From positions 1-64,000 of the forward strand of contig NZ_BPUO01000015.1 in NCBI RefSeq assembly GCF_022179805.1: 64,000 nucleotides of DNA. Direction: 5' to 3'. Position 1 is the stretch's first letter, and every line of letters starts with the position of its first letter. Shown one piece after another: positions 42,133 to 61,455 of this stretch. Under the pieces are notes generated by a model. That model ran no database searches, was not told the origin of the DNA, and worked only from the letters and a program-made list of their open reading frames with translations. Position numbers and translations under genes: made by a program. This stretch comes from Cupriavidus pauculus (GTDB lineage: Bacteria > Pseudomonadota > Gammaproteobacteria > Burkholderiales > Burkholderiaceae).

Positions 42133-42813
42133 TCAGTACAGCCCGTGCGGCTCCAAGACCTTGCGAAGCCACTCTTGCTCTCGCACTCCGGTCGCAATCT
42201 CATCGACGATTTTCTGCTCGTTCTTCGCCGTGACCGCAACAGCTTCAAGCAGCGCTCCGGCTTGAGCAAGGGGAAAGGCAACTACGCCATCCTCGTCGCC
42301 TATGACCACGTCTCCGGGGGAAATGAGCTGCCCCCCGATGGATACCGGCACATTCATCGCACCAGGGCCCATTTTGTACGGCCCACGATGGCTGACAGCG
42401 CGCGCATAGCAAGGGAAGTCCGCTTCATAGAACGCTGCCATATCGCGAATCGCACCGTCCAGCACGAATCCGGCGCATCCTCGCGCAGCCGCATATCGCA
42501 TGATGAGTTCGCCAACTAGAGCATTGGTGGCATCACCGCCTCCATCGACAACAAGGACGTGGCCTGGCTGCAATTCCATCAACGCCTTATAGATGAGCAG
42601 ATTGTCGCCGGGCCGTGCCTTTACGGTGACTGCCGTTCCGACAAGCTTGCGGCTGCGGTTGAACCGCTGTAACCCCGTCACCCCAGACAGCCGCTGCAGA
42701 TTGTCACTGATGTGCGGTGTCACCACGTTGCCGAAAGCCTCGATGATCTCCGTGGGGGCAAGAGGAGGGACGGGATTGAGTGTGAAATTGGACGTTGCCA
42801 CAAGAGTCTCCAA
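42133..42813 (-). CDS. RraA-like aldolase-family protein, copy 4
   Basis: 226 residues: HISDNLQRLSGVTGLQRF, LVGTAVTVKARPGDNLLIYK, AGFVLDGAIRDMAAFYEAD and ISPGDVVIGDEDGVVAFPL. Arg-Asp pair present; third residue after Asp is Ala instead of acid. Similar in plan to copy 1 (shared segment with SHRGPYK). Monocistronic; the promoter region carries the 15-base site (42887) that recurs in front of the neighbouring LysR and rraA operon, so it belongs to the same regulon. Confidence 0.83.
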   Translation of the reverse strand: METLVATSNFTLNPVPPLAPTEIIEAFGNVVTPHISDNLQRLSGVTGLQRFNRSRKLVGTAVTVKARPGDNLLIYKALMELQPGHVLVVDGGGDATNALVGELIMRYAAARGCAGFVLDGAIRDMAAFYEADFPCYARAVSHRGPYKMGPGAMNVPVSIGGQLISPGDVVIGDEDGVVAFPLAQAGALLEAVAVTAKNEQKIVDEIATGVREQEWLRKVLEPHGLY

Positions 42814-42886
42814 GAAGGAATAGCGCTATGTACCAACTCTCGGGCAACGCCAGGGGTCTGTAAATTCCAAAAACCGGATGGATTTG

Positions 42887-42901
42887 ATACGCCAAACCTA
42901 T
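42887..42901. promoter_or_regulatory. LysR-type site ATACGCCAAACCTAT upstream of rraA copy 4
   Basis: Exact reverse complement of ATAGGTTTGGCGTAT at 43861-43875. It includes the T-N11-A LysR signature and lies 74 bases before the rraA start codon (minus strand). Confidence 0.65.
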
Positions 42902-42922
42902 GGATTAGGTACTTGCATAGCG

Positions 42923-43852
42923 CTATCCGTGGGGGACTGAACGCTGGCGAGTTGAGACGACTTTGCCACTTGCGAGTATTTCGATAGCCGCTTCCACTGC
43001 CGGACTTTGCCTGCTCTTCGACCACGCCATCGCAGTTGTGACTACGCTCACGGCCTCCCTCAGGGGACGGACAACAACACTTTCGGGGGCCGCCTTCTTC
43101 ATGGAGGACGGCACAAGGGCAATGCCCTGACCACACCCTACAAATGCCACTTGTGTCGCAACCGTTCTCACTTCGTGAAGGATTCTCGGCGAAAACCCTA
43201 CCGCCCGACAGGTTGCAATAATGCTGTCGAAGTAGGTCGGGCTGACCGCGCGCGAGAAGGTAACAAAGGGTTCCTCCGCCAGCGTCGCAAGCCGAATTCT
43301 TGGCATGCTCGCGAACCTGTGTGTCTTGGGCAGCGCCACTGCCAGGCGGTCCTGCTTCAGTGGCAAAGCACCAATCGTCGTGCCGAGCTCGCCTTCCAAA
43401 CGGGCAAATGCCAAATCGATATCTCCCCGCTCGAGTGCGGGAACCGCATCCACGCTGTCAATCTCGGTCACCGAAACCGTCAGCTGGGGGAACCTCTTCC
43501 CCAGTTCGTCGATGAGGCTAGGCAGTGTGTCGACGAGAGCAGAAGAGATAGCGCCAATCGAAAGCACCCCAGTGCTGCCGGTGATAGCTTCCTGAACCGC
43601 GAGTTCGAGTCGGTCCAGTTGCTCTGCAAATTTCCGGACAGCCGGAAGAATCGCTACTCCGACTGGCGTCAGGGTGGCCCCCTTTCTGCCTCGCTCAAAA
43701 AGCTTGACCTTCAGCGCCTGTTCCAGCACCTGAATCTGTTCAGTAAGCGGGGGCTGGGACATGCCCAGCCTCTTCGCGGCACGTCCAAAGTTCCCCTCTT
43801 CGGCCACAGCCAAGAAGAGATACAGGTGCCGAACAAGCCTGAAGTTAATCAT
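42923..43852 (-). CDS. LysR-type transcriptional regulator (CatM/BenM-like DNA-binding domain)
   Basis: 309 residues; helix-turn-helix LFLAVAEEGNFGRAAKRLGM then SQPPLTEQIQVLEQAL, which is the aromatic-degradation type of LysR DNA-binding domain; standard effector domain. Located between rraA copy 4 and the divergent rraA-rraA-aminotransferase operon, both of which are preceded by the same 15-base site, so it most likely controls the two transcription units and itself. Confidence 0.88.
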   Translation of the reverse strand: MINFRLVRHLYLFLAVAEEGNFGRAAKRLGMSQPPLTEQIQVLEQALKVKLFERGRKGATLTPVGVAILPAVRKFAEQLDRLELAVQEAITGSTGVLSIGAISSALVDTLPSLIDELGKRFPQLTVSVTEIDSVDAVPALERGDIDLAFARLEGELGTTIGALPLKQDRLAVALPKTHRFASMPRIRLATLAEEPFVTFSRAVSPTYFDSIIATCRAVGFSPRILHEVRTVATQVAFVGCGQGIALVPSSMKKAAPESVVVRPLREAVSVVTTAMAWSKSRQSPAVEAAIEILASGKVVSTRQRSVPHG

Positions 43853-43860
43853 GACAATTG

Positions 43861-43875
43861 ATAGGTTTGGCGTAT
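43861..43875. promoter_or_regulatory. LysR-type site ATAGGTTTGGCGTAT between LysR and rraA operon
   Basis: Located nine bases upstream of the LysR start codon (43852) and about 84 bases before the rraA start at 43959. Exact reverse complement of 42887-42901. The flanks (TTGATA before, TATGGATT after) are conserved in the same direction at both sites. Confidence 0.65.
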
Positions 43876-43958
43876 GGATTGGTTACTGGAATCGGAATTT
43901 ACATTTCAAACTCTAGCGCCGACAGTAAGCCCATGGCAACCCACCGCACCCTCTCATC

Positions 43959-44627
43959 ATGAGTACCTCTTCCTTGCTGGACCGCCTTTCATCGCTGGAC
44001 ACCAACACGGTTTCCGATGCGCTCGACTTCCTGAACCTGCCCGGTGCGACCTACGGCATCCGCCCCCTTTGGGACTGCCCCAAAATCGTCGGACGCGCGA
44101 GCACCATTCAACTCGGCCCCAAGACTGAAGCCAAGCCAACGGTCCACCTCATCACGCCGGTCGTCGCGCAAATCCAGACGGACGACCGCATTCTCGTCAT
44201 CGCTGGCGGACTGGAAGGTATTTCGTGCTGGGGGGACATTCTTGCAAACGCTTCCGTAGCCAAGAAAGTTCGCGGCTCCGTCATCGACGGTGTAAGCCGG
44301 GACATCGAGGGAAGCGAATCCATCGGCTATCCCGTCTTCGGGCGCGGCGTCACGATGATTAGTGCACGTAACCGCGTAGTCCAGATCGACTCGGGCAAGG
44401 CGGTCACCTTCGCAGGCGTTGTCGTCAGTGAGAACGACTACGTCATCGCAGACCGCTGCGGTACGGTCTTCGTACCGGCGGACCGAATCGAAGAGGTGCT
44501 TGATCTTGGCGAGCGTATCGCTCGTCGGCAGGACGGAATGGTGCAGGCGGTGCGTTCGGGACGCTCCGTCGAGGAAGTCATGCACGACAAGGAATTCGAC
44601 GCCATCAACAGCAAGGAGGCAAAATGA
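43959..44627 (+). CDS. RraA-like aldolase-family protein, copy 5
   Basis: 222 residues: TNTVSDALDFLNLPGATYG, KIVGRASTIQLGPKTEAKPT, GSVIDGVSRDIEGSESIGY and VVVSENDYVIADRCGTVFVP. The Arg-Asp pair is kept, the acidic third residue after it is Gly. Stop and next start overlap (ATGA), so it is translated together with copy 6; the two differ strongly, suggesting a heteromeric enzyme or two successive steps. Confidence 0.83.
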   Translation: MSTSSLLDRLSSLDTNTVSDALDFLNLPGATYGIRPLWDCPKIVGRASTIQLGPKTEAKPTVHLITPVVAQIQTDDRILVIAGGLEGISCWGDILANASVAKKVRGSVIDGVSRDIEGSESIGYPVFGRGVTMISARNRVVQIDSGKAVTFAGVVVSENDYVIADRCGTVFVPADRIEEVLDLGERIARRQDGMVQAVRSGRSVEEVMHDKEFDAINSKEAK

Positions 44628-45280
44628 CTGACAAAGACCTGGTAGCCCTTTTTGAGGGTCTGGACACTCCCGGCGTATCCGATGCAATGGACCGTCTCGG
44701 CCTGCCTGGTCAGTGCCTGGGCATCGCACCGCTGGACAACTATCGCAAGCCCATCGTCGGCCCTGCTTTCACCGTGAAGTATGTGTCGGCAAGCACGCCT
44801 CCTGGCACTGTTGGCGACTTCATCGACGACGTGCAACCTGGCGACATCATTGTCATCGATAACGACAGCCGCACGGACTGCACGGTCTGGGGTGACATCA
44901 TGACGCAATATGCTGGCACGCGCGGCATCGCCGGTACCGTGATTGACGGCGTCTGTCGTGACGTAACGAAGGCGCTCGGCGATGGATATCCGCTGTTCAC
45001 GCGTGGCCGTTTCATGCGCACCGGCAAAGACCGCGTACAGGTGCAATCGGTGAACACGCCGATTTCCGTGGGAACCGCTCGCGTTTGCTCACGTGACATC
45101 GTGATGGCAGACGCCAACGGCGTAGTCGTTATCCCGCGCGAACGAGCCAAGGAAGTGGCTGAACTTGCACGCAAGATTGAAGACGTCGAATCGCAGATTC
45201 GCGAGCACATCGCCAACGGCAGAACGCTCGGTGAAGCCCGCGAAGCGCTGGGCTACCACACCTTGCAGAGGAAGGCGTGA
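44624..45280 (+). CDS. RraA-like aldolase-family protein, copy 6
   Basis: 218 residues: TPGVSDAMDRLGLPGQCLG, GPAFTVKYVSASTPPG, AGTVIDGVCRDVTKALGDGY, ARFMRTGKDRVQV-like RGRFMRTGKDRVQV, and an LGYHTLQRKA end. Closest relative in the window is copy 2 at 12986, but the acidic residue of R-D-x2-E is Lys here. Starts inside the stop of copy 5 and is followed immediately by the aminotransferase gene (TGATG). Confidence 0.84.
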   Translation: MTDKDLVALFEGLDTPGVSDAMDRLGLPGQCLGIAPLDNYRKPIVGPAFTVKYVSASTPPGTVGDFIDDVQPGDIIVIDNDSRTDCTVWGDIMTQYAGTRGIAGTVIDGVCRDVTKALGDGYPLFTRGRFMRTGKDRVQVQSVNTPISVGTARVCSRDIVMADANGVVVIPRERAKEVAELARKIEDVESQIREHIANGRTLGEAREALGYHTLQRKA

Positions 45281-46494
45281 TGGCAGACGAACTCCGGCGA
45301 TTGAACGTCAATCTCGCCAACGCTCAGCCGTCGGCGACCTATCGCGTGATGGACCGTGTTGCTGCCAAGCGAGCGACCGGTGCGAAAATCATCTCCCTGA
45401 GCGCCGGCGAGCCGGACTTCGACACGCCTGCGCACATTTGTGAAGCAGCCATCGGCGCCATTCGTGGCGGCCACACGCGCTACACCCAGGTTGCAGGCCT
45501 TCGCTCGCTGCGCGAAGCCATCGCCGAGAAGTTCAAGCGCGAAAATGGTCTCGATGTGAGGTGGCAGGACACCATCGTCTGCTCGGGCGGCAAGCAGGTC
45601 ATCTACAACGCCCTGGCAGCAACATTGAACACTGGCGATGAAGTCATTGTTCCTGCTCCGTACTGGGTCAGCTATCCCGAGATGGCGCAATTGTGCGGGG
45701 CCACACCCGTGGTCGTCCAATGTGGGGCCGATGTTGGATTCAAGCTGATGCCCGAGGCACTGAGCAGGGCGATTACTCCGCACACGCGTTGGCTGATTCT
45801 CAACTCCCCGTCCAATCCGACCGGTGCTGTCTACTCTCGAGACGAGCTGGCCAGGCTGGGAGAAGTGCTGCTGGACCACCCTCATGTGCTCGTGCTGTCT
45901 GACGATATCTACGAGCACCTCACCTTCGACGGAGAGCAGTTTTTCACCATTGCCCAAGTCGAGCCACGTCTGATGGACCGGACGCTCACCATGAATGGCG
46001 TCTCCAAGGCGTATGCCATGACCGGCTGGCGCATTGGATTCGGGACGGGACCAGCTTGGTTGCTGGAGGCGATGGAGAAGCTGCAAGGACAGCAGACCTC
46101 CGGCGCATCCTCGATTTCGCAGCATGCGGCACTCGTTGCACTGCAAGGCCCACAGGACTTTATCCGGGATTCGAAGGACGTGTTCCAAGCTCGTCGGGAC
46201 ATGATGGTAGAACTGCTGAACAACACGCCCGGACTTAGCTGTGCTGTGCCGGGCGGGGCTTTCTACGCGTTTGCGTCTTGCGAAGGTCTGCTCGGCAAGT
46301 CCACCCGGGCCGGCACGCTGTTGCGTACGGACGAAGACGTCGCGCTCGCTCTGCTCGAGGAAGCAAACGTCGCCGTGGTACATGGCTCGGCTTTCGGGTT
46401 AGGACCCTACATTCGCATCGCTTACGCTCTGGACAATGAATCTCTGCGTAAAGCGTGCGAAGCCATTCGCGAGTTTTGTCTGTCTCTTCGGTGA
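45280..46494 (+). CDS. Class I pyridoxal-phosphate aminotransferase (aspartate-aminotransferase-like)
   Basis: 404 residues from the ATG at 45280 (a GTG one codon earlier is possible). Fold type I signatures: LSAGEPDFDTPAHICEAA, YTQVAGLRSLREAIAEKF, SPSNPTGAVYSRDEL, SDDIYEHLTFDG and the PLP lysine near 243 in MNGVSKAYAMTGWRIGFG. It should exchange an amino acid and a 2-oxo acid. Its stop/start overlap with rraA copy 6 suggests that the oxo acid it makes or uses is the aldolase substrate, for example 4-hydroxy-4-methyl-2-oxoglutarate from a substituted glutamate. Confidence 0.9.
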   Translation: MADELRRLNVNLANAQPSATYRVMDRVAAKRATGAKIISLSAGEPDFDTPAHICEAAIGAIRGGHTRYTQVAGLRSLREAIAEKFKRENGLDVRWQDTIVCSGGKQVIYNALAATLNTGDEVIVPAPYWVSYPEMAQLCGATPVVVQCGADVGFKLMPEALSRAITPHTRWLILNSPSNPTGAVYSRDELARLGEVLLDHPHVLVLSDDIYEHLTFDGEQFFTIAQVEPRLMDRTLTMNGVSKAYAMTGWRIGFGTGPAWLLEAMEKLQGQQTSGASSISQHAALVALQGPQDFIRDSKDVFQARRDMMVELLNNTPGLSCAVPGGAFYAFASCEGLLGKSTRAGTLLRTDEDVALALLEEANVAVVHGSAFGLGPYIRIAYALDNESLRKACEAIREFCLSLR

Positions 46495-46527: not shown

Positions 46528-46584
46528 TGCTTCCAAAATAAAAAATTCGTGCTGGCCACGGTCGCACGATTGAAGGAGACTATC

Positions 46585-47556
46585 ATGCAGCGATTCTCGA
46601 CCGTCGCACAGATTCTGGTCGCGGCTATTTCCATAGCCACTTCGGCAGCTTACGCGGAAGACCGCTGGCCCACCAAGCCCATTTCCCTCATCGTTCCTTA
46701 CGCCCCTGGTGGCACCTCGGACGTGCTCGCACGAATCCTCGCTGCAAAGCTGCACGACAAGCTCGGGCAATCCGTCATCGTTGAGAACAAGCCCGGCGCG
46801 GGTGGCAATATCGGAACGAATCTTGTGGCCAAGGCGAAGCCCGATGGCTACACGTTTCTGGTGGGTTCCAGCGGGCCCATTGTTATTGCGGGCGCCCTGT
46901 ATCCAAAGCTTCCCTATAAGCCTGAGACAGACTTCACCCCAGTCGCGCCGCTGGCGAAGGCCAGCTTCGTCGTCGCAGTGAACGCGAAATCGGGGCTCAA
47001 CTCAATTCAGGACATCATCAACAAGGGGAAGACTGGCCAAATCTCCTTTGGCTCGGCCGGCTCCGGCTCGCCGCAACATATCATCGGCGAAATGTTCAAT
47101 GTTGAAGCGAAGACCAAACTTCAGCACATCCCCTACAAGGGGTCCGGCCCGTTGTTGAATGATTTGGTAGGCGGACAGGTCGCGCTCGCATTTGAGAACC
47201 CGCTGCCCATCATGCCCCAGGTGAAGGCAGGGAACATCAAGGTACTGGCCATTACCAGCGCTCAGCGGTCGCCTCTGTTCCCGGATATCCCGACGCTCGC
47301 AGAGTCCGGCGTGAAGGGATTTGACGCACAGCCCTGGTACGGAATGCTGGCTCCCGCCGGGCTTCCAAACGATATTGCAGAAAAGATGAACACTGCTGTG
47401 CAGTCGATTCTCTCGTCAGCCGATGTCGTCGCGCAGTTGAAGGGCCAAGGCGCTGAACCGATGGCGATGAAGCCTGCGCAATTTCGCGCCCTCATCGGGT
47501 CCGACATTCGCAAGTGGGCCGACGCAGTCAAGCGTTCGGGTGCCACAGTAGACTAA
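46585..47556 (+). CDS. Bug/TctC-family periplasmic solute-binding protein (copy 8)
   Basis: 323 residues from the ATG at 46585 behind GAAGGAGACTATC; a longer frame from 46549 places the signal peptide internally. Signal to about residue 23 (ILVAAISIATSAAYA), then PISLIVPYAPGGTSDVLAR, ENKPGAGGNIGTN, SAGSGSPQHIIGEMF and FPDIPTLAESGVKGF. In the aminotransferase/RraA operon, so the ligand is probably the amino or oxo acid handled there. Confidence 0.9.
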   Translation: MQRFSTVAQILVAAISIATSAAYAEDRWPTKPISLIVPYAPGGTSDVLARILAAKLHDKLGQSVIVENKPGAGGNIGTNLVAKAKPDGYTFLVGSSGPIVIAGALYPKLPYKPETDFTPVAPLAKASFVVAVNAKSGLNSIQDIINKGKTGQISFGSAGSGSPQHIIGEMFNVEAKTKLQHIPYKGSGPLLNDLVGGQVALAFENPLPIMPQVKAGNIKVLAITSAQRSPLFPDIPTLAESGVKGFDAQPWYGMLAPAGLPNDIAEKMNTAVQSILSSADVVAQLKGQGAEPMAMKPAQFRALIGSDIRKWADAVKRSGATVD

Positions 47557-49665: not shown

Positions 49666-50313
49666 ATGTCAGAGAATAAATTCGGCATGCTTTTCGTGGC
49701 GTCGGATATTGGCGCCGATGACGAACATGATTTTAACGCCTGGTACGACCGCGAGCACATTGAAGAGCGTGTGCGCATGAATGGTGTTATCTCCGCGGCC
49801 CGCTACGTGGCAATTTCCGGGCGTCCAAAATACCTCGGTTTGTATTGGGCAGAATCGATTTCAGTTTTCGCTTCTCCGGCATATGCGCACGCGTTCCGTC
49901 ACCAGACTCCCTGGTCAGTTAGTGTGCTGCCGAAGATTCAGAATCCGACACGCCGCATTGGTGAGGTCTCCGCCGACGTCGGGCAAGGCAGCGGAGGATG
50001 GGTGGCGGTACTTCCTCTGAATGCCGACACCCCTGCGTTCGAACAGAAGTGCGCAAATGTTGGAGCCCTGCTGGCGACCGACATTGGTTTCGTCCGTTCG
50101 TACGTCATCACGACGAACGACGAGCTCAGCCGACCACTTCCGCAGGAAGACCTGAGCAAGCGGGAGATGCGTCCGCTTTTTGTCATCGAAAGCAGCAACT
50201 CGGCCTCGAACGAAGCCGCGCTGCGCCACGCCATCGAGGCCCTGCCCTGTGCGCCTGCTGATGCTGCCCGCTATCAATTGACGTGGAAGCTGTCCCGTGA
50301 GGAGTTGAAGTAA
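49666..50313 (+). CDS. DUF4286-like (dimeric alpha/beta-barrel) protein
   Basis: 215 residues in two ferredoxin-like halves. The first half has the signature FNAWYDREHIEERVRMNGVI, ARYVAISGRPKYLGLYWAES and SPAYAHAF, typical of DUF4286 proteins; the second half (about residues 112-210) is a looser repeat. Relatives are small enzymes or ligand binders related to ABM monooxygenases and EthD. Its role is unknown. It leads the operon and its stop overlaps the transporter start by one base (TAATG). Confidence 0.75.
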   Translation: MSENKFGMLFVASDIGADDEHDFNAWYDREHIEERVRMNGVISAARYVAISGRPKYLGLYWAESISVFASPAYAHAFRHQTPWSVSVLPKIQNPTRRIGEVSADVGQGSGGWVAVLPLNADTPAFEQKCANVGALLATDIGFVRSYVITTNDELSRPLPQEDLSKREMRPLFVIESSNSASNEAALRHAIEALPCAPADAARYQLTWKLSREELK

Positions 50314-51638
50314 TGGACAACGCAACTACCTTCACTCCCGCGGCTGAGTCCGCGCACGTAGCGGCACCGCGCAAGAAAATGCGCCGTCTCGCTGCCGCGA
50401 GCTCCATAGGGACCACGCTGGAATGGTACGACTTCACGGTCTACAACCTCATGGCGGCGCTGGTCTTCAACAGCGTCTTCTTCCCGTCGCTGGACCCGCT
50501 GTCCGGCACTATCCTAGCGTTCTCGACCTACGCCGTTGGCTATCTGTCGCGTCCGTTCGGCGGCATCGTTTTCGGTCATCTTGGCGATAAGCTCGGACGT
50601 CGCTTTGTCCTGGTGGCCACTCTGGTTCTCATGGGCGCTTCCACCGGTCTCATGGGCATGCTTCCGACGTATGAGGTGTGGGGCATCTGGAGTCCTATTC
50701 TGCTGGTCGCTTTGCGCTTCCTTCAAGGTGTGTCTATTGGGGGGGAGTGGGCAGGAGCAGTTCTGCTTTCGATGGAGCACGGTAGTCAGGACCAGCGCGG
50801 GCGCAACGCGTCCTTCGCTCAGGTGGGACCCGCCTGCGGCACGCTGCTGGGAGCCGGCTTCATCACTTTCTTCACGTTCTTTCTGCCCACAGAAGCTTTC
50901 CATGACTGGGGCTGGCGCATTCCGTTCCTTTCCAGCGTTGGCCTGGTGGCATTCGGCCTGTGGCTGCGACGCGGCGTCGATGAAACTCCGATGTTCGAAC
51001 AACTCGAACAAGGTCATAGCAAGGCCAAGATGCCGCTGAAGGAAGTTGTGGAGAGCCACTGGCGCCGCCTTCTCGTTGCGGGTGGTGTGCGAATCGGCTC
51101 CGACGTTGTATACGGCCTGCTCGTCGTCTTCACGCTGACGTATGTGACTACGGTGCTGAACCTTCCCCGTTCGCTGGCCCTGACCGCGACCATGTTAGGC
51201 GCCGCCCTTCACGCCGTTGCCGTACCAATCTTCGGCGCGCTGAGCGACAAACTCGGCCGCAGAGTGGTCTACGGGGCGGGCGCGGTGTGCTCCATCGGAT
51301 GGGCGTTCGCTTACTTCGCCCTGATGAACACGCTTAATCCAGTCAACATTTGCATTGCCGTCGTCGTAGGGATGTTGTTCCAGGCAATGATGTACGGACC
51401 CCAAGCAGCATTCGTGACGGAACAGTTCCCGACCCGCGTCCGGTATGCCGGTGCGTCGTTGGCTGCAACGCTGGGCGGCATCATCGGTGGTGGCTTCGCT
51501 CCGCTCGTTTTTGCCAGCCTCTACAAGACGTACCAGTCTTCCGCCACGCTCTCCATCTACATCGCTGCGAGCCTGCTGGTCACTCTGGTGAGTCTCCTCG
51601 CCGCCAAGGAGACAGCGCACAAGCCGCTGGAACACTGA
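50313..51638 (+). CDS. MFS transporter, metabolite:H+ symporter (MHS) family
   Basis: 441 residues with 12 predicted TM helices. MHS signatures: SSIGTTLEWYDFTVYNLMAA near residue 30, FGHLGDKLGRRFVLVATL (motif between TM2 and TM3), LRFLQGVSIGGEWAGAVLL, and ALSDKLGRRVVYG in the second half. Members import shikimate, dicarboxylates, proline/betaine or pyroglutamate-like acids with protons. In the operon with 5-oxoprolinase-type subunits it is the probable permease for their substrate. Confidence 0.9.
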   Translation: MDNATTFTPAAESAHVAAPRKKMRRLAAASSIGTTLEWYDFTVYNLMAALVFNSVFFPSLDPLSGTILAFSTYAVGYLSRPFGGIVFGHLGDKLGRRFVLVATLVLMGASTGLMGMLPTYEVWGIWSPILLVALRFLQGVSIGGEWAGAVLLSMEHGSQDQRGRNASFAQVGPACGTLLGAGFITFFTFFLPTEAFHDWGWRIPFLSSVGLVAFGLWLRRGVDETPMFEQLEQGHSKAKMPLKEVVESHWRRLLVAGGVRIGSDVVYGLLVVFTLTYVTTVLNLPRSLALTATMLGAALHAVAVPIFGALSDKLGRRVVYGAGAVCSIGWAFAYFALMNTLNPVNICIAVVVGMLFQAMMYGPQAAFVTEQFPTRVRYAGASLAATLGGIIGGGFAPLVFASLYKTYQSSATLSIYIAASLLVTLVSLLAAKETAHKPLEH

Positions 51639-51700
51639 CCTGCCCCGGCCGCCACTACGAAGTGCGGCCGGACCCTTGAATCGAAATCGGCATTTCAAGC

Positions 51701-52402
51701 ATGACCCTCACCCTGGAAATAGCAGAGCCCGACAATATGGTCGTAGCGCGCATCCATGCGGCTGGTTCCGGCGCCCTACTGCTCGACGCTTCCACCGGCG
51801 CCTTCGACAACGATATCCAGTCGCTTCTGCTTTCCCTGGCTAGCAAGCTGCGTCAGCGACTAGGAGAAAAGACTCCTCACGAGGTGGTGCTCGGCGTCAA
51901 CAACCTGCTCCTGACGTTCGACCCGCTCCAGCTGCATCCGAGAAAAGCGGAGGCGCTGATGCAACAGCTGTGGGAAACGGCTACACCCTCTCCCAACGGT
52001 GGACGGAACTTCGACATCCCAGTCACGTACGGCGGTGAGTACGGAGAGGACTTGAACGACCTCGCCGAGCGTGCCGGTGTTGGCGTTGAAGAGTACATCC
52101 GTCGACACAGCTCAGCCGTCTACACGGTTGCATGCATTGGTTCTATGCCGGGATTTGCCTACATGACAGGCTTGCCAGAGGAGCTTTGGGTGCCGAGGCG
52201 AGCCATGCCTCGCATGAAAGTTCAGAAAGGGGCGGTGATTGTAGGCGGCAGCCAGGCGGGCGTCATGCCTTGCACGGCTCCTTCAGGCTGGCACCTCATC
52301 GGCATAACCGACCGGGAAATGTTTGACGCGAGCAAGGAAGCGCCTTGTCTACTCGCACCCGGCGACACGGTTCGATTCAGTATCAAGGAGGTTTTGGTGT
52401 GA
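51701..52402 (+). CDS. pxpB: PxpB/KipI-family protein (5-oxoprolinase subunit B type; carboxyltransferase subdomain C/D fold)
   Basis: 233 residues. KipI core: HEVVLGVNNLLLTFDP, DIPVTYGGEYGEDLNDLAER, SMPGFAYMTGLPEELWVPRR and VGGSQAGVMPCTAPSGWHLIG. PxpB works with PxpA and PxpC in ATP-dependent opening of 5-oxoproline; the same fold forms part of the carboxyltransferase domain of urea amidolyase. An N-terminal extension of about 20 residues (MTLTLEIAEPDNMVV) is unusual. Coupled with the next gene (GTGTGA overlap). Confidence 0.88.
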   Translation: MTLTLEIAEPDNMVVARIHAAGSGALLLDASTGAFDNDIQSLLLSLASKLRQRLGEKTPHEVVLGVNNLLLTFDPLQLHPRKAEALMQQLWETATPSPNGGRNFDIPVTYGGEYGEDLNDLAERAGVGVEEYIRRHSSAVYTVACIGSMPGFAYMTGLPEELWVPRRAMPRMKVQKGAVIVGGSQAGVMPCTAPSGWHLIGITDREMFDASKEAPCLLAPGDTVRFSIKEVLV

Positions 52403-53382
52403 TTGAGATTCTTTCAAACGGCGCGCCAAACGTAGTGCAGGACTTGGGGCGAAACGGCTGCCTGAGCTTCGGCGTCAGTCGTAGCGGCGCCATGGACCCA
52501 TTCGCACTCGCCATCGGCAACGCTCTCGTTGGAAATGACCGCGGCGAGGCGGGCATAGAAATCAACCTCTTCCCGTTCCGCGCGAAGTTTCACCAAGACA
52601 TGCGCTTCGCTGTCACGGGCGCAGACGTCAAGACAACGTTGGACGACCACCGTATGGCGCCTTGGTGGGGTCGCACGGCATCCGCCGGCCAAACCATCGT
52701 TATTGAGCGCCCCAGGCGCGGGGCGAGAGCTTATCTGGCCGTCGGCGGAGGCGTCAGCGTCGAACCCGTCCTTGGCTCGAAGTCCACCGACCTTAAGGGC
52801 TCTTTCGGCGGCGCGTCGGGACGCGGATTGATGCGCGGTGACCGCTTGGATGTCGGTCAAGTGTCGGTCCAGTCCTCCCAAGCATGGAAGGTCGGACTAG
52901 GCGTTGTTCCGCAAGGGCTAATCGAGTACTGGGATGAAGTCAGCAGCAACTGCGTCACCGTCCGAGTACTCCCTGCAGCCGAGTTCGAGCGGTTTACCCC
53001 TGAATCGAGGGCCGCCTTCCTGCACGAGGAATTCAAGGTCACGCCGGACTCCAATCGCGTCGGGTACCGACTGAACGGCCCGATACTCAGCCAGCATGAA
53101 CATGTTGAGCTGCTCTCTCACGGCATCGTCGCCGGAACCATCCAAGTTCCGCCGTCCGGCCAGGCCATCGTGCAACTTGCTGAAGCCAACACTTGCGGCG
53201 GCTATCCCAAGATTGCAACGGTGATTGAAGCCGACTTGTGGAAGCTCTCTCAGGCTCCCATTGGCTGCGCCATCCGATTCGTACTCACCGACATTGATAC
53301 CGCTGTTGCTGCGCTGCAGACAAAGCGCGACGAAGAACTGCGAATCCGAGACACCCTGGCGATGATGTCAGGCCGAGCATAG
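52399..53382 (+). CDS. pxpC: PxpC/KipA-family protein (5-oxoprolinase subunit C type; carboxyltransferase subdomain A/B fold)
   Basis: 327 residues with GTG start at 52399, overlapping the pxpB stop. KipA core: NVVQDLGRNGCLSFGVSRSG, AMDPFALAIGNALVGND, RAYLAVGGGVSVEPVLGSKS, and the LLSHGIVAGTIQVPPSGQAI / CGGYPKIATVI region. Forms a complex with the PxpB-type subunit; the two together match the biotin-dependent carboxyltransferase part of urea carboxylase. A conserved Tyr-Arg-type contact set is not clearly different from the norm. Middle gene of pxpB-pxpC-pxpA. Confidence 0.88.
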   Translation: MIEILSNGAPNVVQDLGRNGCLSFGVSRSGAMDPFALAIGNALVGNDRGEAGIEINLFPFRAKFHQDMRFAVTGADVKTTLDDHRMAPWWGRTASAGQTIVIERPRRGARAYLAVGGGVSVEPVLGSKSTDLKGSFGGASGRGLMRGDRLDVGQVSVQSSQAWKVGLGVVPQGLIEYWDEVSSNCVTVRVLPAAEFERFTPESRAAFLHEEFKVTPDSNRVGYRLNGPILSQHEHVELLSHGIVAGTIQVPPSGQAIVQLAEANTCGGYPKIATVIEADLWKLSQAPIGCAIRFVLTDIDTAVAALQTKRDEELRIRDTLAMMSGRA

Positions 53383-53419
53383 ACACCTCCTCAGATAACC
53401 CGACAAGGAACTAAAAATC

Positions 53420-54196
53420 ATGAGCACGCAAAGCGAAGCCATCCAAGTAGACCTCAACTCCGACATGGGCGAAGGCTTTGGCGCATACCGCATGGGAGAC
53501 GATGCTGCCATCCTCGAAATCGTCACGTCCGCTAACGTCGCATGCGGCATGCACGCTGGTGACCCTGAAATCATGGCCAAGACCTTTTCGCTAGCCAAGG
53601 CTCGAGGCGTTGCCGTGGGTGCTCATCCTGGCTTCCCCGACCTGTGGGGATTCGGCCGTCGTGTCATCCCCTTCACGCACGGGGAAATCGAACGCCTGGT
53701 TGCCTATCAGATTGGCGCTGCCCAAGCGCTGTCGCGTTACGCTGACCACCCCATTACCTACGTGAAAGCACACGGGGCGCTCGGCAACCTGACCCAAACG
53801 GACGAAGCGGTAGCCAAGGCAATCGCACGTGCGATTAAGGCTGTCGACCCGAACCTCATCTGCATGACCTTCGCCGGTGCAGTCATGGAACGCGTAGCGT
53901 CCGACATGGGACTGTCCGTCAGGCGCGAAGTTTTCGCGGACCGCGCGTACACCGAGGAAGGAAATCTGGTGCACCGGTCTGTGCCGGGCGCAGTACTCCA
54001 TGACGGCGATGAAGCTGCCGCTCGCATGCTACGCATGGTCAAGGCGGGAGCCATTGAGACCGTCTCCGGGAAGCTGTTGCCGGTGCAGATTGACACCATT
54101 TGCGTCCATAGCGACACGCCCGGTGCAATCCAAATGGCGGCAAAAGTGCGTAGCACGCTTGAAGGCGCAGGCATCGTGGTTAAGTCATTCAGCTGA
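53420..54196 (+). CDS. pxpA: PxpA/LamB-YcsF-family protein (5-oxoprolinase subunit A type)
   Basis: 258 residues with the YcsF barrel: VDLNSDMGEGFGAYRMGDDA near residue 9, SANVACGMHAGDPEIMAKTF, GVAVGAHPGFPDLWGFGRR, ITYVKAHGALGN, RREVFADRAYTEEGNLVHRS and VHSDTPGAIQMA. The metal-dependent amidohydrolase-like subunit carries out the lactam opening in the PxpABC reaction, with ATP used by the partner subunits. Here, three bases of context downstream begin a biotin-carrier gene, so the lactam chemistry may be linked to carboxylation. Confidence 0.9.
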   Translation: MSTQSEAIQVDLNSDMGEGFGAYRMGDDAAILEIVTSANVACGMHAGDPEIMAKTFSLAKARGVAVGAHPGFPDLWGFGRRVIPFTHGEIERLVAYQIGAAQALSRYADHPITYVKAHGALGNLTQTDEAVAKAIARAIKAVDPNLICMTFAGAVMERVASDMGLSVRREVFADRAYTEEGNLVHRSVPGAVLHDGDEAAARMLRMVKAGAIETVSGKLLPVQIDTICVHSDTPGAIQMAAKVRSTLEGAGIVVKSFS

Positions 54197-54203
54197 GGCG
54201 AAC

Positions 54204-54689
54204 ATGGATTTGAAGTTCGTCGAAACTCTGGTCAGTGTGCTCGAACGCTCCAAGGCACTCAGCGAAATCGAGTATAGCGATGGCCAACGTCACGTAACGC
54301 TGAAGCGTGCTTCGTCGGGCACCACAGTCTCGGCAACGCCGTTTGACCATCCGCTTGCGGAAGCTAGGACCCTCGACCGGATACCGGCGGCAGTCGAGCA
54401 TCCTGCAGCCGCATCGATAGCAGCTGCGCCCAACACCCACACCATAGTCGCCGGCATGATTGGGACCTTCTATCGCTCTCCAGCGCCGAACCAACCCGCC
54501 TTTGTGTCTGTCGGTGACTCGGTGAAAGAAGGTCAGACGCTGGCAATCGTGGAGGCGATGAAGCTACTCAACCCTATTGATGCGGATAGGGCTGGTCGGG
54601 TTTCCGAAATTCTCGTGGCAGACGGCACAGCCGTTGGAGCCGATACCCCACTGTTCGTCATTGAGGACTTGGAGGCGTCAAATGTTTGA
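54204..54689 (+). CDS. accB: Biotin carboxyl carrier protein (AccB-type), operon-specific
   Basis: 161 residues from the ATG at 54204. The N-terminal helical part ([30 protein letters not shown]) is AccB-like; a flexible Ala/Pro linker follows, then the biotinyl domain starting [20 protein letters not shown] with the biotin-attachment lysine Lys120 in [17 protein letters not shown] (Leu after the Lys in place of the usual Met). It carries the carboxyl group from the biotin carboxylase. Seven bases after pxpA and overlapping accC by eight bases. Confidence 0.9.
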
Positions 54690-56055
54690 CACAGTCCTTA
54701 TAGCTAATCGGGGCGAGATTGCGCTCAGAATCCATCGAGCCTGCCGCAAATTGGGCTTGAAAACGGTTGCAGCATACTCAGATGCCGATGCTCTTCTTCG
54801 GCACGTGAGTCTTGCCGACAAGGCAATTTGTATTGGACCTGCCCCTTCGGCGAAGAGCTACCTGAACCAGCACGAGATTCTGCTGGCGGCGAAAGCAACG
54901 GGAGCCGGTGCCATTCATCCTGGATACGGCTTTTTGTCGGAGAATGCCTCGTTTGCGGAAGCGGTCGAGCATGCCGGTCTGGTCTTCATTGGACCAAGCT
55001 CGAAATCCATCCGGCTGATGGGTGACAAAGTCACTGCAAAACAAGCCATGGCGGAGGCGGGAGTTCCCTGCGTACCTGGCTCGGATGGCTCTCTGCCCGA
55101 CGACCCATCAAGCATTGTGGAAGTTGCTGCACGAGTTGGCTATCCGCTCATTGTTAAGGCGGCTGGCGGTGGCGGCGGAAGAGGCATGCGGGTCGTCGAA
55201 TCCCCTGATGAGTTGGTCAAGTCGGTGGCTATGACCCGGGAAGAAGCTGGACGCGCATTTGGTAACCCCACCGTGTATCTGGAGCGGTATCTGAAGACGC
55301 CGCGCCACGTCGAGATTCAGGTCCTGGCCGACAGTCACGGCAACGCCATCTGGCTCGGCGAGCGCGACTGCTCCACACAAAGACGTCACCAGAAGCTCAT
55401 CGAAGAGTCTCCGGCCCCTGGGATTGACCGCAGTGAGATTGTAAGAATCGGCGACCTATGTGCGCAAGCCTGCGTCCAGATTGGATACCGTGGGGCGGGT
55501 ACATTCGAGTTCCTCTATGAAGAGGGCGAGTTCTTCTTCATCGAGATGAACACCCGCGTCCAGGTCGAGCATCCAGTTACCGAACTTGTGACGGGCGTTG
55601 ACATTGTGGCTGAGCAGCTTCGTATTGCACGCGGCGAACGGCTGGGAATTAAGCAAGCCGATGTGACCTTCTCGGGCCACGCCATTGAATGTCGAATCAA
55701 TGCCGAACATCCGTGGAAGTTCACACCTTGCCCGGGAAAAATCGACGAGTGGCTTATCCCCGGTGGACCGGGCGTTCGGGTTGAATCCCACGTGTATGCG
55801 GGATACGTCGTGCCTCCGCACTACGACTCCCTCATCGCCAAGCTGCTTGTCCATGGAAGTACCCGAGAGGAAGCCATCGCCCGTATGAAGACCGCGCTAG
55901 ATGAGCTACATGTTCGCGGAATTCAGACCACCACCTCGCTGCATCGCAAATTGATGGACGAGCCGGATTTCGCGGACGGAGGTGCCGACATTCACTACCT
56001 AGAACGATTGATTCCGCAATGGGGCACCGCCAAGGGGGATAGTCATGAACGTTGA
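54682..56055 (+). CDS. accC: Biotin carboxylase (AccC-type), operon-specific
   Basis: 457 residues, start at the ATG at 54682 inside the end of accB. Full biotin carboxylase: [39 protein letters not shown]-grasp with [59 protein letters not shown] and the C-terminal [14 protein letters not shown]. It carboxylates the biotin of the carrier with bicarbonate and ATP. Its position in a pxp operon means the acceptor is likely not acetyl-CoA. It overlaps the next gene by 11 bases. Confidence 0.93.
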
Positions 56056-56452
56056 AGTGCTCTCTTCGTTGGTCGCTGCACTTGAGCGAGCGGGCATCTC
56101 GACGTTCTCCTATCGAGAAGGCTCCGAAACACTGACGCTGCGCTTCGGCCAAACGGCTCAGCCTTCACCTCTGGCTTCGCCCGAAACTGCTTCCCATGTA
56201 CCTCCTGGCGACAGCGCTCCAGCGAAATTAGAGATTCTCTCCAATGGCACCGGTTCGTTTAGTCGCTCTCACCCACTTGCGGAGCGTGCGTTTGAGCAAG
56301 TGAGGCAGGGAGACCATATCGGGTACCTGACTGTCGAATCGGTATGGAGCGCTATCGTCGCACCCGTTGATGGGCTGGCTACCGCACAACTTACAGAAGA
56401 CGGCGGAACCGTTGGATACGGCCAGCCGGTACTCGAACTCCTCGAATCGTAG
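56045..56452 (+). CDS. Second biotin-carrier-like protein without the biotinyl lysine
   Basis: 135 residues. The N-terminus ([28 protein letters not shown]) repeats the AccB helical domain of the gene at 54204, and the C-terminal part ([20 protein letters not shown] then [20 protein letters not shown]) follows the lipoyl/biotinyl fold. At the position of E-A-M-K-M it reads E98-S-V-W101-S, so the attachment Lys is Trp. It cannot be biotinylated in the normal way. Plausible roles: structural partner holding the carrier or the PxpBC complex, or a decaying duplicate. Start overlaps accC. Confidence 0.78.
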
Positions 56453-56496
56453 TCGTTTCCTTTGCACCCCCAAAATCCCTTGGAAGGACAGACGCC

Positions 56497-57468
56497 ATGA
56501 AGCGCCTCATAAATGCTCTACTTGCCGCAGTGTGCCTTATCGGCTCGCAGGCCTTCGCGAGCACCGCGGACTATCCGAACAAGCCGATACGCTTGCTGGT
56601 GCCCTACCCTCCCGGCGGCTCGACCGATGGCGTCGCTCGCCTCGTGGGCCAAAGACTGACAGCAAAACTCGGGCAGCCCGTTGTGGTGGACAATCGTCCC
56701 GGGGCTAGTGAAGCCATCGCCGCAAGCGCTGTAGCAAAGTCTGCTCCGGACGGCTACTCGCTCTTGTTCGCCACGATGACGGGCCTTTCGGTAAATCCGA
56801 GCCTGTACAGCAAACTTAGCTACGACCCAGCCAAGGACTTTGCGCCAATCATCCAGGTGACCTCGATTCCCAGCGTGGTAGTGGTCAACCCGAATGTGCC
56901 TGTGCAATCGATGGCGGACCTGGCTCGCTATCTGAAGAGTCGGCCCGCATCAGAAGGTTACGCATCCGCAGGGAACGGGACGCCAAGTCACCTCGGCATG
57001 GAACTGTACAAGAAGGCTACCGGGACCAATGTCGTTCACGTGCCGTACAAGGGAGGCGCGCCCGCCCTGCAAGACCTGATGGCCGGGCAAGTGCAAATCA
57101 TGATGGCGCTGGCGCCGGAAGCCATGCCTCTGGTGAAGGGTGGCAAGCTCAAAGCACTGGCTATCACAACCACGACGCGCGCTACCGCCTATCCTGAACT
57201 CCCGACAGTTTCGGAAAATGGCCTACCAGGCTTCGAGATGATTTTCTGGCAAGCGCTGGTCGCTCCCGCTGGGACGCCGAAAGAAATTGCCGCGAAGCTC
57301 AACAAGGCGGTCAACGAGATTCTGTCGGAACCCGATATCAAGCGTCGACTTGTGGAAATGGACCTTGAGCCAGCGGGCGGAACCCAGGACGCCCTCGGAA
57401 ACTTGATGCGAACGCAGGCGACCAAATGGAAAAAGGTTGTTGTGGACGCTGGCATCAAGCTTGACTAA
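56497..57468 (+). CDS. Bug/TctC-family periplasmic solute-binding protein (copy 9)
   Basis: 323 residues; signal to about residue 23 (ALLAAVCLIGSQAFA), then PIRLLVPYPPGGSTDGVAR, DNRPGASEAIAAS (the usual GGNIG loop replaced), GNGTPSHLGMELY and YPELPTVSENGLPGF. Follows the carrier-like gene by 44 bases; thus the pxp-acc operon has both an MHS permease and a binding protein. Confidence 0.9.
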   Translation: MKRLINALLAAVCLIGSQAFASTADYPNKPIRLLVPYPPGGSTDGVARLVGQRLTAKLGQPVVVDNRPGASEAIAASAVAKSAPDGYSLLFATMTGLSVNPSLYSKLSYDPAKDFAPIIQVTSIPSVVVVNPNVPVQSMADLARYLKSRPASEGYASAGNGTPSHLGMELYKKATGTNVVHVPYKGGAPALQDLMAGQVQIMMALAPEAMPLVKGGKLKALAITTTTRATAYPELPTVSENGLPGFEMIFWQALVAPAGTPKEIAAKLNKAVNEILSEPDIKRRLVEMDLEPAGGTQDALGNLMRTQATKWKKVVVDAGIKLD

Positions 57469-57792
57469 CAGGCATCGCGCGGGGCTTCGTGACCTCCTGC
57501 CGCCACTTGCACTCCGGGGTGACGGCACTGCAATCGGCAACATACGTGCGTAACCCTAGCCTCATCCGATGGGAATATGCATGCGATACGCAATTCGGAA
57601 TTTACACAACTAGGCTAGCTCGGGAAACTCATCCACGGGTTCGTCCGGGCGCCCACAAGGAACCGGGCGGCCCTTTGGGATGGCGAGAGCGATACGGCTT
57701 CTGAAACACAGAAGCCCTAAGGCCAGCATCGTGTGGGATGCCTGCCGCTCGCTCCGCCAGCCTTTCCCACGAGAGGCGGGAGCTCAGTGAGT
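57469..57792. other. Intergenic region between Bug and carbonic anhydrase genes
   Basis: 324 bases; no gene. A hairpin at 57696-57716 may separate the transcripts. A promoter-like AT-rich part lies around 57570-57620 (AATATGCATGCGATACGCAATT). Confidence 0.5.
57696..57716. terminator. Hairpin GGCTTCTG-AAACA-CAGAAGCC
   Basis: Eight-base perfect stem with five-base loop 228 bases after the Bug stop codon; no T-run, so a weak terminator or an mRNA leader structure for the carbonic anhydrase gene. Confidence 0.4.
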
Positions 57793-58521
57793 ATGAACAT
57801 GAATGTGAATCAGAGAATGGACTTGTGCGGCCTGCTTGAGAACAATCGGCAATGGGCTTCCGACGTGGAAGACCGCCGTCCGGGGTTCTTTCAGTCGCTC
57901 ATGCAACAACAAGCGCCACAGTGGCTATGGATTGGCTGCGCGGATAGTCGAGTTCCTGCGAATGAGCTCGTTGGCCTGCAGCCCGGTGAGTTGTTCGTCC
58001 ATCGGAACATCGCGAATGTCGTCGCACACTCGGATTTGAATTGCCTCTCGGTGCTTCAGTATGCCGTCGACATGCTGAAGGTTCAGCATGTCGCTGTGGT
58101 AGGCCATTCGGGTTGCGGCGGAGTTCGCGCTGCTCTCGAGAAAACGCGCATCGGTATTGCGGACAACTGGGTACGACACATTCGCGATGTGGTCGAGAAG
58201 CATTCGTCGTGGCTGGAAACGCTTTCGCCTGACCAACAACTCGATGCCACATGCCGACTGAATGTACTCGAACAGACACGGAATCTCTGCCTCACCACAG
58301 TGATGCAGGACGCTTGGTCGCGTGGTCAAACTGTCGCCGTTCATGGCCTCATCTACAGCCTTCAAGATGGACTATTGAAGAGCCTGTCACTCACCGTAAG
58401 GTCGTTGGATGATGTGGAGCGAAACTATGCCTTAGCTCTTGCGGAACTGATGCTGCCAAAGGCGGCTGTGCCAACTCCTACGCACTGCGATTGCTCGGAG
58501 CATGTCTTGACCGCGGCATGA
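57793..58521 (+). CDS. can: Beta-class carbonic anhydrase
   Basis: 242 residues from the ATG at 57793 with GGGAG upstream. Zinc ligands and catalytic pair: Cys49-x-Asp51-x-Arg53 in WIGCADSRVPANELVGL and His105-x2-Cys108 in VGHSGCGGVRAAL; the ELFVHRNIANVV strand lies between. Converts CO2 and water to bicarbonate. Placement just after a biotin carboxylase operon suggests it supplies bicarbonate for that carboxylation, though a separate promoter is possible. Confidence 0.93.
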   Translation: MNMNVNQRMDLCGLLENNRQWASDVEDRRPGFFQSLMQQQAPQWLWIGCADSRVPANELVGLQPGELFVHRNIANVVAHSDLNCLSVLQYAVDMLKVQHVAVVGHSGCGGVRAALEKTRIGIADNWVRHIRDVVEKHSSWLETLSPDQQLDATCRLNVLEQTRNLCLTTVMQDAWSRGQTVAVHGLIYSLQDGLLKSLSLTVRSLDDVERNYALALAELMLPKAAVPTPTHCDCSEHVLTAA

Positions 58522-60474: not shown

Positions 60475-61455
60475 ATGACGAACACCCTACGCATCGCGCT
60501 TGGCGCCCTGGCCTACACCGTAGTCGCCGCTGCACCGGCCCATGCCGCTGACCCGGCTGCGGCGTACCCGACCAGGCCCATCAAGATGATTGTTCCGTTT
60601 CCGGCCGGCGGCACGACGGACACGCTGATGCGCCTGATTTCGCCCACGCTCACCAAGGAGTTAGGCCAACCGGTGGTTATTGAGAACAAGTCCGGAGCCT
60701 CGGCGACGCTGGGTGCCGATGCAGCAGCGAAGTCCGCCCCGGACGGCTACACCCTCTTGGCCGGCAGTGCCCACCACACCATCGCGCAGTCAGTGTTGAA
60801 GCTGTCCTACAAGTTCGATACGGACCTGGTGCCAATCGCCATGACCGCCATCGTGCCGAACGTGGTCGTCGTCAACAGCAACGTCAAGGCCAAGACCATT
60901 CAGGAACTCGTTGCAGACGCCAAGGCAAATCCGGAGAAATACAACTACGGCTCCGCCGGCCCTGGCAGCGCGCACCACTTGATTGGCGAGATGTTCAAGC
61001 TGAAGACCGGCGCCCCTATTACGCACATTCCCTATCGTGGCAGCGCACCAGCCGTATCGGACCTACTTGGTGGCCAGGTGCTCATCATGTTTGACACCGT
61101 GACATCGGCGCTCCCCCATATCAAGTCGGGTAAGACGCGCGCCCTCGCCGTTACGACCGCGACCCGTTCGAGCGCCCTCCCAGACGTTCCCACGCTGGCC
61201 GAGACTGGCGTGAAGGGCATCGACGTGGGTACATGGTTCGGCGTTCTGGCACCGACTGGCACACCGCAACCCATCATCGACAAGCTCAACGCAGCCATCG
61301 TCAAGGCTGTCAAAGACCCAGCTATCAGCAAGCAACTGCTGACACAAGGCATCGAACCGCACCCGAGCAGCCAGGCCGAATTTAGGGCGCTCATTGCCAA
61401 AGAAATCACCGATTTCAAGAACCTGGTTGCGCAAACCAAGTTGACCGTCAACTGA
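60475..61455 (+). CDS. Bug/TctC-family periplasmic solute-binding protein (copy 10)
   Basis: 326 residues; signal to about residue 24 (MTNTLRIALGALAYTVVAAA), then PIKMIVPFPAGGTTDTLMR, ENKSGASATLGAD, GSAGPGSAHHLIGEMF and LPDVPTLAETGVKGI. The SAHHTIAQSVLKLSYKFDTD segment resembles the copy at 40603. First gene of an operon with an enoyl-CoA hydratase, a CoA-transferase and an MFS transporter; an acid activated to a CoA ester is its likely ligand. Confidence 0.9.
   Translation: MTNTLRIALGALAYTVVAAAPAHAADPAAAYPTRPIKMIVPFPAGGTTDTLMRLISPTLTKELGQPVVIENKSGASATLGADAAAKSAPDGYTLLAGSAHHTIAQSVLKLSYKFDTDLVPIAMTAIVPNVVVVNSNVKAKTIQELVADAKANPEKYNYGSAGPGSAHHLIGEMFKLKTGAPITHIPYRGSAPAVSDLLGGQVLIMFDTVTSALPHIKSGKTRALAVTTATRSSALPDVPTLAETGVKGIDVGTWFGVLAPTGTPQPIIDKLNAAIVKAVKDPAISKQLLTQGIEPHPSSQAEFRALIAKEITDFKNLVAQTKLTVN

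Follow-up and report, generated by a model that had tools for sequence, protein, structure and literature searches.

Cupriavidus pauculus is described as a soil bacterium, and one stretch of its 6.8 Mb genome, 64,000 nucleotides of contig NZ_BPUO01000015.1 (hereafter the window), raises the question of what 5-oxoprolinase-type genes do in one operon with those of a biotin enzyme. The genes pxpB, pxpC and pxpA are followed there by accB1, encoding a biotin carboxyl carrier protein (BCCP), by accC, encoding a biotin carboxylase (BC), and by B2, a BCCP paralogue whose biotinyl lysine is missing. An earlier note on this DNA suggested that the PxpB/PxpC pair (PxpBC) is a biotin-dependent carboxyltransferase (CT) acting on a lactam or an amide. 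The first half of this suggestion is now the best reading: the genome has a second accB-accC pair, PxpBC does occur with biotin genes elsewhere, and the six genes very probably encode a dedicated BC with PxpBC as its CT. The lactam or amide remains a prediction from sequence.

Conservation of the six-gene module

We scanned one genome per species (84,980 species) with a PxpC alignment and kept the best 80 of 380 relatives as loci (L-numbers), each with up to 10 kb of flank per side; the gene profiles had been built on the first 13 loci. As a query of the window's own PxpC type favours near PxpC, the co-occurrence rates apply to that type only. B2 was found near 74 of the 80 loci, a figure that is not a rate for PxpC in general, AccB1 near 73 and AccC near 59. 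All six genes were present at 55 loci, all but accC at 15, all but pxpA at 3, and all but accB1 at a single one, where that gene is cut by the contig end. The linkage of PxpC with B2 is far beyond chance. It takes 15 arrangements among the 74 loci, counting split strands and some orders that differ merely by one absent gene, and the taxa include Burkholderiaceae, Comamonadaceae, Pseudomonadaceae, Rhizobiaceae, Phyllobacteriaceae, Acetobacteraceae, Paracoccaceae and a Pantoea. B2 also matched in 19 plasmid records, and PxpBC accompanied it in seven of the eight plasmid regions read. On one Bradyrhizobium plasmid (L033, 8822-8992), accC has shrunk to a 171-base gene between the two carrier genes. 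Class-level sampling returned mostly urea carboxylases and was kept out of the co-occurrence counts; likewise, we drew no rate from 20 further, hand-chosen loci of the genus Cupriavidus, which were read individually.

In the window, the order on the + strand is DUF4286-like gene, MHS permease, pxpB, pxpC, pxpA, accB1, accC, B2, bug and beta-carbonic anhydrase, exactly as the earlier note had listed it (Table 1). The tight packing it had described between 49666 and 56452 extends to 57468, with genes that overlap or nearly touch and a widest gap of 62 bp, 5' of pxpB. Within the core of six, from pxpB to B2, genes overlap or are separated by at most 37 bp. The carbonic anhydrase gene, which begins 324 bp beyond the end of bug, is probably transcribed on its own.

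Two BCCP of this genome score above the curated cut-off, one in an aroQ-accB-accC cluster on contig C13 (187 bits) and the window copy (131 bits). PF02626 also has two matches, one in the window and one in an ordinary pxpBCA operon on contig C7, where no biotin-gene profile matched within the 18 kb read. With a second accB-accC pair and an ordinary pxpBCA elsewhere in the genome, the window set is a dedicated one, and the pair on C13 rules out the window accB-accC as the sole or housekeeping pair. A further BCCP with accC alongside occurs in 14 out of 14 other module-bearing genomes, although in two of them (those of L093 and L108) this BCCP scores under the cut-off.

The lysine-free carrier

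AccB1 has the biotinyl lysine in the motif EAMKLLN, and B2 lacks it, as had been proposed. In the family alignment the biotinyl-lysine column holds K in 86 of 86 AccB1 and in none of 87 B2, counts that take in the 13 earlier loci, some of which are duplicates of later ones. We restrict the claim to the biotinyl position. The sole lysine of the window B2, K61, lies at the start of the domain, and the final 75 residues contain at least one lysine in 62 of 82 B2 and none in 20. The dipeptide HP is present in 73 of 82 B2; among AccB1, read from beyond residue 60, it is present in 3 of 81 (different spans were counted). In the first 14 B2 aligned, HP stands at one invariant place.

B2 alone has no Pfam match, and its NCBIfam matches are all sub-threshold. 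The B2 and AccB1 families are nevertheless homologous over their whole length (hhalign, 99.8%, E 1.3e-28), and E. coli BCCP in its full-length form (4hr7) gives a match to the B2 profile at 1.3e-20. An AlphaFold model of B2, with a mean pLDDT of 84.1 but unreliable at residues 38-53, aligns to 1bdo, the biotinyl domain of E. coli (Z 13.1, 2.6 Å over 76 residues), and to Arabidopsis BCCP1, 9a87 (Z 12.4, 2.4 Å over 75).

With B2 alone as the query, the genome scan gave no matches. A single-sequence search of the genus was positive in 6 of 60 genomes, and this undercounts, because it missed two genomes (G049 and G055) where B2 was seen later. In 200 genomes of the family searched with the B2 profile, the best 11 matches, one per genome, were all lysine-free and adjoined AccC (3) or PxpBC/PxpA (8), and the next 19 loci listed were lysine-bearing AccB beside AccC. 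B2 is thus present in at least 11 of these 200 genomes, and weaker B2 may hide among the AccB matches. As far as seen, these sequences suggest that B2 is a distinct family restricted to this module. What the earlier note had overlooked is the conservation of the lysine-less carrier as a family, which more loci have nearby than have AccC.

B2 is kept even at the 15 loci that miss accC. These loci, which retain both carriers, are L047, L050-L052, L054, L063, L064, L066, L074, L086, L089, L091, L094, L097 and L113; the genomes of L047 and L064 hold another accB-accC pair beside an RraA-family gene (L165, L164).

Full-length BCCP homology without the biotinyl lysine recalls the BADC proteins of Arabidopsis, which passages of PMC11926652 describe as BCCP homologues without the biotinylation motif, 25-30% identical to BCCP and unique to the plant enzyme. 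Like BADC, B2 has lost the lysine and keeps the N-terminal part and the fold of BCCP; unlike them, it is bacterial, encoded in an operon and tied to PxpBC, and the likeness is one of feature. By this analogy, B2 may be a non-catalytic assembly subunit, a role for which we consider the case evenly balanced. It would then be the scaffold of an AccC-AccB1-PxpBC complex, as BADC would be in the plant plastid enzyme. A negative regulator, in which B2 is a decoy carrier competing with AccB1 for AccC, seems to us unlikely: the missing lysine fits a decoy equally, and BADC was earlier proposed to inhibit the plant enzyme, but the same passages of PMC11926652 argue for a glue role of BADC, and B2 lies near more loci (74) than AccC itself (59).

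Lineages of AccC and PxpC

The AccC of the window has the same residue as E. coli AccC at all 14 BC active-site positions checked. The residues are also intact in 66 AccC of modules of the window's kind (type I), save position 236, which is H in 60 and N in 6. L027 and L073, together with identical rows and those shorter than 430 residues, are excluded from these counts and from the AccC tree. In this tree, a quick one with long branches flagged, the 66 type I AccC and two RraA-linked AccC make up one branch (SH-like approximate likelihood ratio test, SH-aLRT, 99), apart from housekeeping AccC and next to those of beta/gamma lineages. A strict type I clade is rejected (approximately unbiased test, p-AU 0.029) because the two RraA-linked rows nest inside it; a single clade of housekeeping AccC is not (p 0.40).

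The model of the window PxpC is a confident one (pLDDT 91.8) and can be aligned to E. coli YbgJK (5dud, Z 39.7) as well as to the K. lactis urea amidolyase CT (Z 35.5, 2.1 Å over 307 residues). This PxpC has a signature around the GGYP loop, F58-P59-F60, W90, Q259 and N264. Among the 61 type I rows left once near-copies were removed, P59 is found in 60, F60 in 61, W90 in 59, Q259 in 61 and N264 in 54. The 14 canonical, type II and aminotransferase-linked PxpC compared with them have L at 259 and Q at 264 without exception, and W90 is also present in one of four canonical PxpC. The signature suggests, from residues, another substrate or another partner.

PxpBC appears to have allied with biotin genes more than once. 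Four Cupriavidus loci that we read (L116, L117, L118 and L122) carry a second module, type II, with the order accC-pxpB-pxpC-pxpA-short BCCP. Like type I, it joins PxpABC, BC and BCCP in one operon; it differs in that its AccC and PxpC lie on other branches, its carrier is short and lysine-bearing, and B2 had no match at any of the four loci. This carrier has 79 residues in L116, its start is uncertain in the other three, and the motif ESMK is present in all four. An MHS-like permease accompanies the type II module. The PA0492-0496 type of Pseudomonas is perhaps also of this kind. In the PxpC tree (midpoint root), type II PxpC groups with PxpC linked to aminotransferases and not to biotin, and type I stands beside canonical PxpC. 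Six aminotransferase-linked loci (L121, L125 and L127-L130) are aminotransferase-pxpB-pxpC-pxpA operons whose PxpC is sister to type II, and neither a biotin carboxylase nor B2 was found near them. The simplest reading of these trees is that PxpBC recruited biotin genes on two separate occasions; alternatively, there may have been losses from a biotin-using ancestor.

The proposed reaction, its rivals and the neighbouring genes

From these data, the six genes probably encode a dedicated multi-subunit biotin-dependent enzyme with a lactam-type substrate, whatever its exact chemistry. With its catalytic residues and the carrier lysine intact, AccC would use ATP and bicarbonate to form carboxylated biotin on AccB1. 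By homology, PxpBC would then transfer the carboxyl group to a cyclic, lactam-like amide, most simply to the ring nitrogen, much as urea carboxylase acts on urea, and PxpA would hydrolyse the activated ring. That the substrate is of lactam type and is afterwards opened by PxpA is a view we lean towards a little. The resulting N-carboxy amino acid would shed CO2 spontaneously, so that bicarbonate would activate the substrate catalytically and the opening of the ring would be driven by ATP. Only tentatively do we extend this to the whole family, as a horizontally moved, widespread class of biotin-dependent lactam-opening enzymes in which PxpBC N-carboxylates with carboxybiotin, PxpA opens the ring and bicarbonate is catalytic, with two obligatory carriers, one biotinylated and the other a permanently biotin-free counterpart of BADC. 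PxpBC in general would then be a carboxyltransferase scaffold, one that has allied with biotin carboxylases on two or more occasions.

Several observations weigh against the enzyme proposed for the six genes. No biotin gene lay within the fetched flank at six of the 80 loci (L046, L048, L056, L072, L080 and L099, the last a 9.5 kb contig starting at pxpC), and 15 lack a local accC. Seven PxpC without biotin genes, these six and L123, fall inside type I, so that type I PxpC (with L046, L048 and L080 nested in it, for example) is not one clean branch. The tree flags the joining of type II AccC to those of methylcrotonyl-CoA carboxylase (MCC) as a possible long-branch artefact. A candidate mark of biotin-linked PxpA of both types, R81/E89, was dropped because R81 is also present in 10 of 10 non-biotin, non-canonical PxpA. 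The neighbours discussed below vary by lineage, so several substrates are possible. Lastly, a passage of PMC5770610 names Lys1605 (K. lactis numbering) as the likely general base of the CT of urea carboxylase. This position is Lys in five of five urea carboxylases and Arg in all 106 rows of the PxpB alignment (one fragment was omitted for length), biotin-linked or not, including R166 of the window. Canonical PxpBC with the same Arg acts in the biotin-free 5-oxoprolinase. The CT chemistry is therefore not proven, and we take the Arg, judged by sequence, neither to support nor to exclude carboxyl transfer by PxpBC.

The same genes could make a biotin-dependent carboxylase whose C- or N-carboxylated amide, imide or cyclic amino acid is the stable final product, which PxpA would process without regenerating an amino acid by release of CO2. 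The evidence from the genes is shared with the reaction proposed above, and the RraA-family neighbours resemble 4-carboxy-4-hydroxy-2-oxoadipate aldolase/oxaloacetate decarboxylase, which acts on carboxylated oxo acids. We find this alternative doubtful, as both RraA proteins of the locus stay under all curated cut-offs and RraA genes lie near just 29 of the 80 loci.

More improbable still is that PxpABC is an ordinary ATP-dependent 5-oxoprolinase and that the biotin genes encode a separate acyl-CoA or acetyl-CoA carboxylase of the same pathway in a shared operon. The module has all three subunits, as in E. coli YbgJKL, whose operon order is also pxpB-pxpC-pxpA; PxpB and PxpA reach the curated 5-oxoprolinase cut-offs, all four canonical PxpA compared share 23 of the 26 polar columns that are near-invariant in type I PxpA, and the six biotin-free loci can be counted on this side. 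The E. coli locus (10 kb read) and the C7 operon (18 kb) differ from the module in having no biotin gene. Against the ordinary 5-oxoprolinase, the window PxpC scores 285.6 against a cut-off of 500 bits and has its own signature, and Pfam and NCBIfam scans of the ten operon proteins revealed no other CT subunit that a separate carboxylase could use. The persistence of the linkage over so many arrangements and the existence of type II also argue against a merely shared operon.

A physical link between the two halves is suggested from outside the family. By the title of PDB entry 9yx5, it is an M. smegmatis long chain acyl-CoA carboxylase complex with MSMEG_0435-MSMEG_0436 bound; judging from title and chain names alone, chains V and W are PxpC and PxpB homologues, and AccA3 is also in the entry. 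Although it is actinobacterial and has an AccA3 subunit, this pair on a biotin carboxylase complex would, by analogy, give independent physical support for the docking of PxpBC on a biotin carboxylase and speaks against two unrelated enzymes. A 2026 paper on C. glutamicum PxpTABC (PMC13274462) assumes ATP phosphorylation by PxpBC, and neither 'carboxylase' nor 'carboxyltransferase' was met with in its main text. In NCBI annotation, relatives of PxpB and PxpC are called 5-oxoprolinase subunits or, for PxpC relatives, 'biotin-dependent carboxyltransferase family protein'. We know of no reaction for proteins of the latter name. Together with 9yx5, this naming means that a link to biotin as such has some precedent.

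That half of a housekeeping acetyl-CoA carboxylase sits here by chance can be dismissed: AccB1 and AccC exceed the corresponding equivalog cut-offs, but the aroQ-linked pair of the same genome has the higher BCCP score, the other 14 genomes also have a second pair, and type I AccC has its own branch.

The dedicated biotin enzyme has the features of a biotin-dependent carboxylase, namely the BC residues, a lysine-bearing carrier and a CT of known fold (PF02626, PF02682; Z 35.5 as above). With urea carboxylase and urea amidolyase it shares BC, BCCP and a CT made of CT_A_B and CT_C_D domains; it differs in having separate subunits in place of one polypeptide and Arg in place of the CT Lys1605, and AccC (477.9), PxpC (153.5) and AccB1 (31.5) do not reach the urea carboxylase cut-off of TIGR02712 (1303.85). 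Because each of the two known classes failed a tested feature, we file the module as a variant of the biotin-dependent carboxylases that is neither a 5-oxoprolinase nor a urea carboxylase.

The accessory genes of the window are lineage-specific (Table 1). The set drawn by the earlier note is thus conserved in its six-gene core and not in the carbonic anhydrase, MHS permease, DUF4286-like and Bug genes; the carbonic anhydrase, found near a single locus, was rejected as a member of the module. No Pfam or NCBIfam model matched the DUF4286-like protein, which takes its name from how NCBI annotates relatives in L027 and L030, and a check of this protein, AccB1 and B2 for anti-phage defence gave no match. 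Other Bug/TctC-like genes are scattered over the window (40603-41592, 46549-47556, 60475-61455 and others) by sequence likeness, only that at 56497 having been scanned with Pfam.

Aminotransferase and RraA-family aldolase genes, which the earlier note had also overlooked upstream of the window's module, are commoner neighbours than the carbonic anhydrase, permease and DUF4286-like genes. Among the 80 loci an aminotransferase lies near 33, RraA near 29 and both near 27, with a short-chain dehydrogenase/reductase near 25, a gene of the proline racemase family near 24 and HyuAB near 5; at 26 loci no aminotransferase, RraA or racemase relative is within reach. The one racemase-family protein scanned (L054) is nearest to trans-3-hydroxy-L-proline dehydratase, below the cut-off. 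HyuA-HyuB (hydantoinase/oxoprolinase) genes stand beside type I modules at L092, L093, L100, L106, L069 and L029, placing two kinds of ring-opening genes together. In the window, 42133-46494 is a probable catabolic unit made up of three genes of the RraA family, one of them on the - strand, together with a LysR gene and one resembling aspartate transaminase; the separate RraA gene at 42133-42813 is above the cut-off of NF004850 alone, a 'hypothetical protein' model. An isopropylmalate/tartrate-dehydrogenase-like gene lies farther upstream (39424-40503).

Table 1. Genes of the module and its surroundings in the window, with the matches on which each assignment rests (bit scores against curated cut-offs where given)
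Feature	Coordinates	Strand	Evidence
RraA-family (HMG/CHA aldolase-like) protein 1	43959..44627	+	under every curated cut-off
RraA-family protein 2	44624..45280	+	under every curated cut-off
PLP aminotransferase, aspartate-transaminase-like	45277..46494	+	NF004769 525.8 bits < 617; 6f77 7.4e-151
DUF4286-like protein, accessory	49666..50313	+	homologue near 7/80 loci
MHS-family MFS permease, candidate importer	50313..51638	+	TIGR00883 1.7e-119, 399.4 bits, under cut-off 443.45; homologue near 7/80 loci
pxpB-like CT subunit (CT_C_D)	51701..52402	+	PF02682 9.6e-60; TIGR00370 153.6 bits > 145.55
pxpC-like CT subunit (CT_A_B), GTG start	52399..53382	+	PF02626 6e-88; NF045499 285.6 bits < 500
pxpA-like LamB/YcsF hydrolase subunit	53420..54196	+	PF03746 1.7e-97; NF003814 366.1 bits > 226
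accB1, biotin carboxyl carrier with biotinyl lysine (EAMKLLN)	54204..54689	+	TIGR00531 131.9 bits > 115.2
accC, dedicated biotin carboxylase	54682..56055	+	TIGR00514 696.8 bits > 626.5
B2, BCCP paralogue without biotinyl lysine	56045..56452	+	alignment, hhalign, structure model
Bug/TctC solute-binding protein, accessory	56497..57468	+	PF03401 2.4e-78; Bug near 12/80 loci
beta-carbonic anhydrase	57793..58521	+	PF00484 1.2e-50; near 1/80 loci

These neighbourhoods point to cyclic or hydroxylated amino acids as likely substrates, varying by lineage. In the lineage of the window, the product would probably pass to the upstream aminotransferase and RraA-family aldolases. Our guess is that 4-hydroxy(-4-methyl)-5-oxoproline, opened to 4-hydroxy(-4-methyl)glutamate and followed by transamination and aldolase cleavage, fits this set.

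Among the papers listed by an open-licence library we recognised none that describes the six-gene module or a lysine-free bacterial carrier family, and none that lies behind 9yx5, which is weak evidence of absence. A conserved module with a dedicated BC, a carrier and a lysine-free carrier offers a direct way to probe how the PxpBC fold works and what it carboxylates. The B2 family would likewise let the debated part of BADC in plant oil synthesis be studied in a simple bacterial setting, and module genes now labelled as acetyl-CoA carboxylase subunits would need new names.

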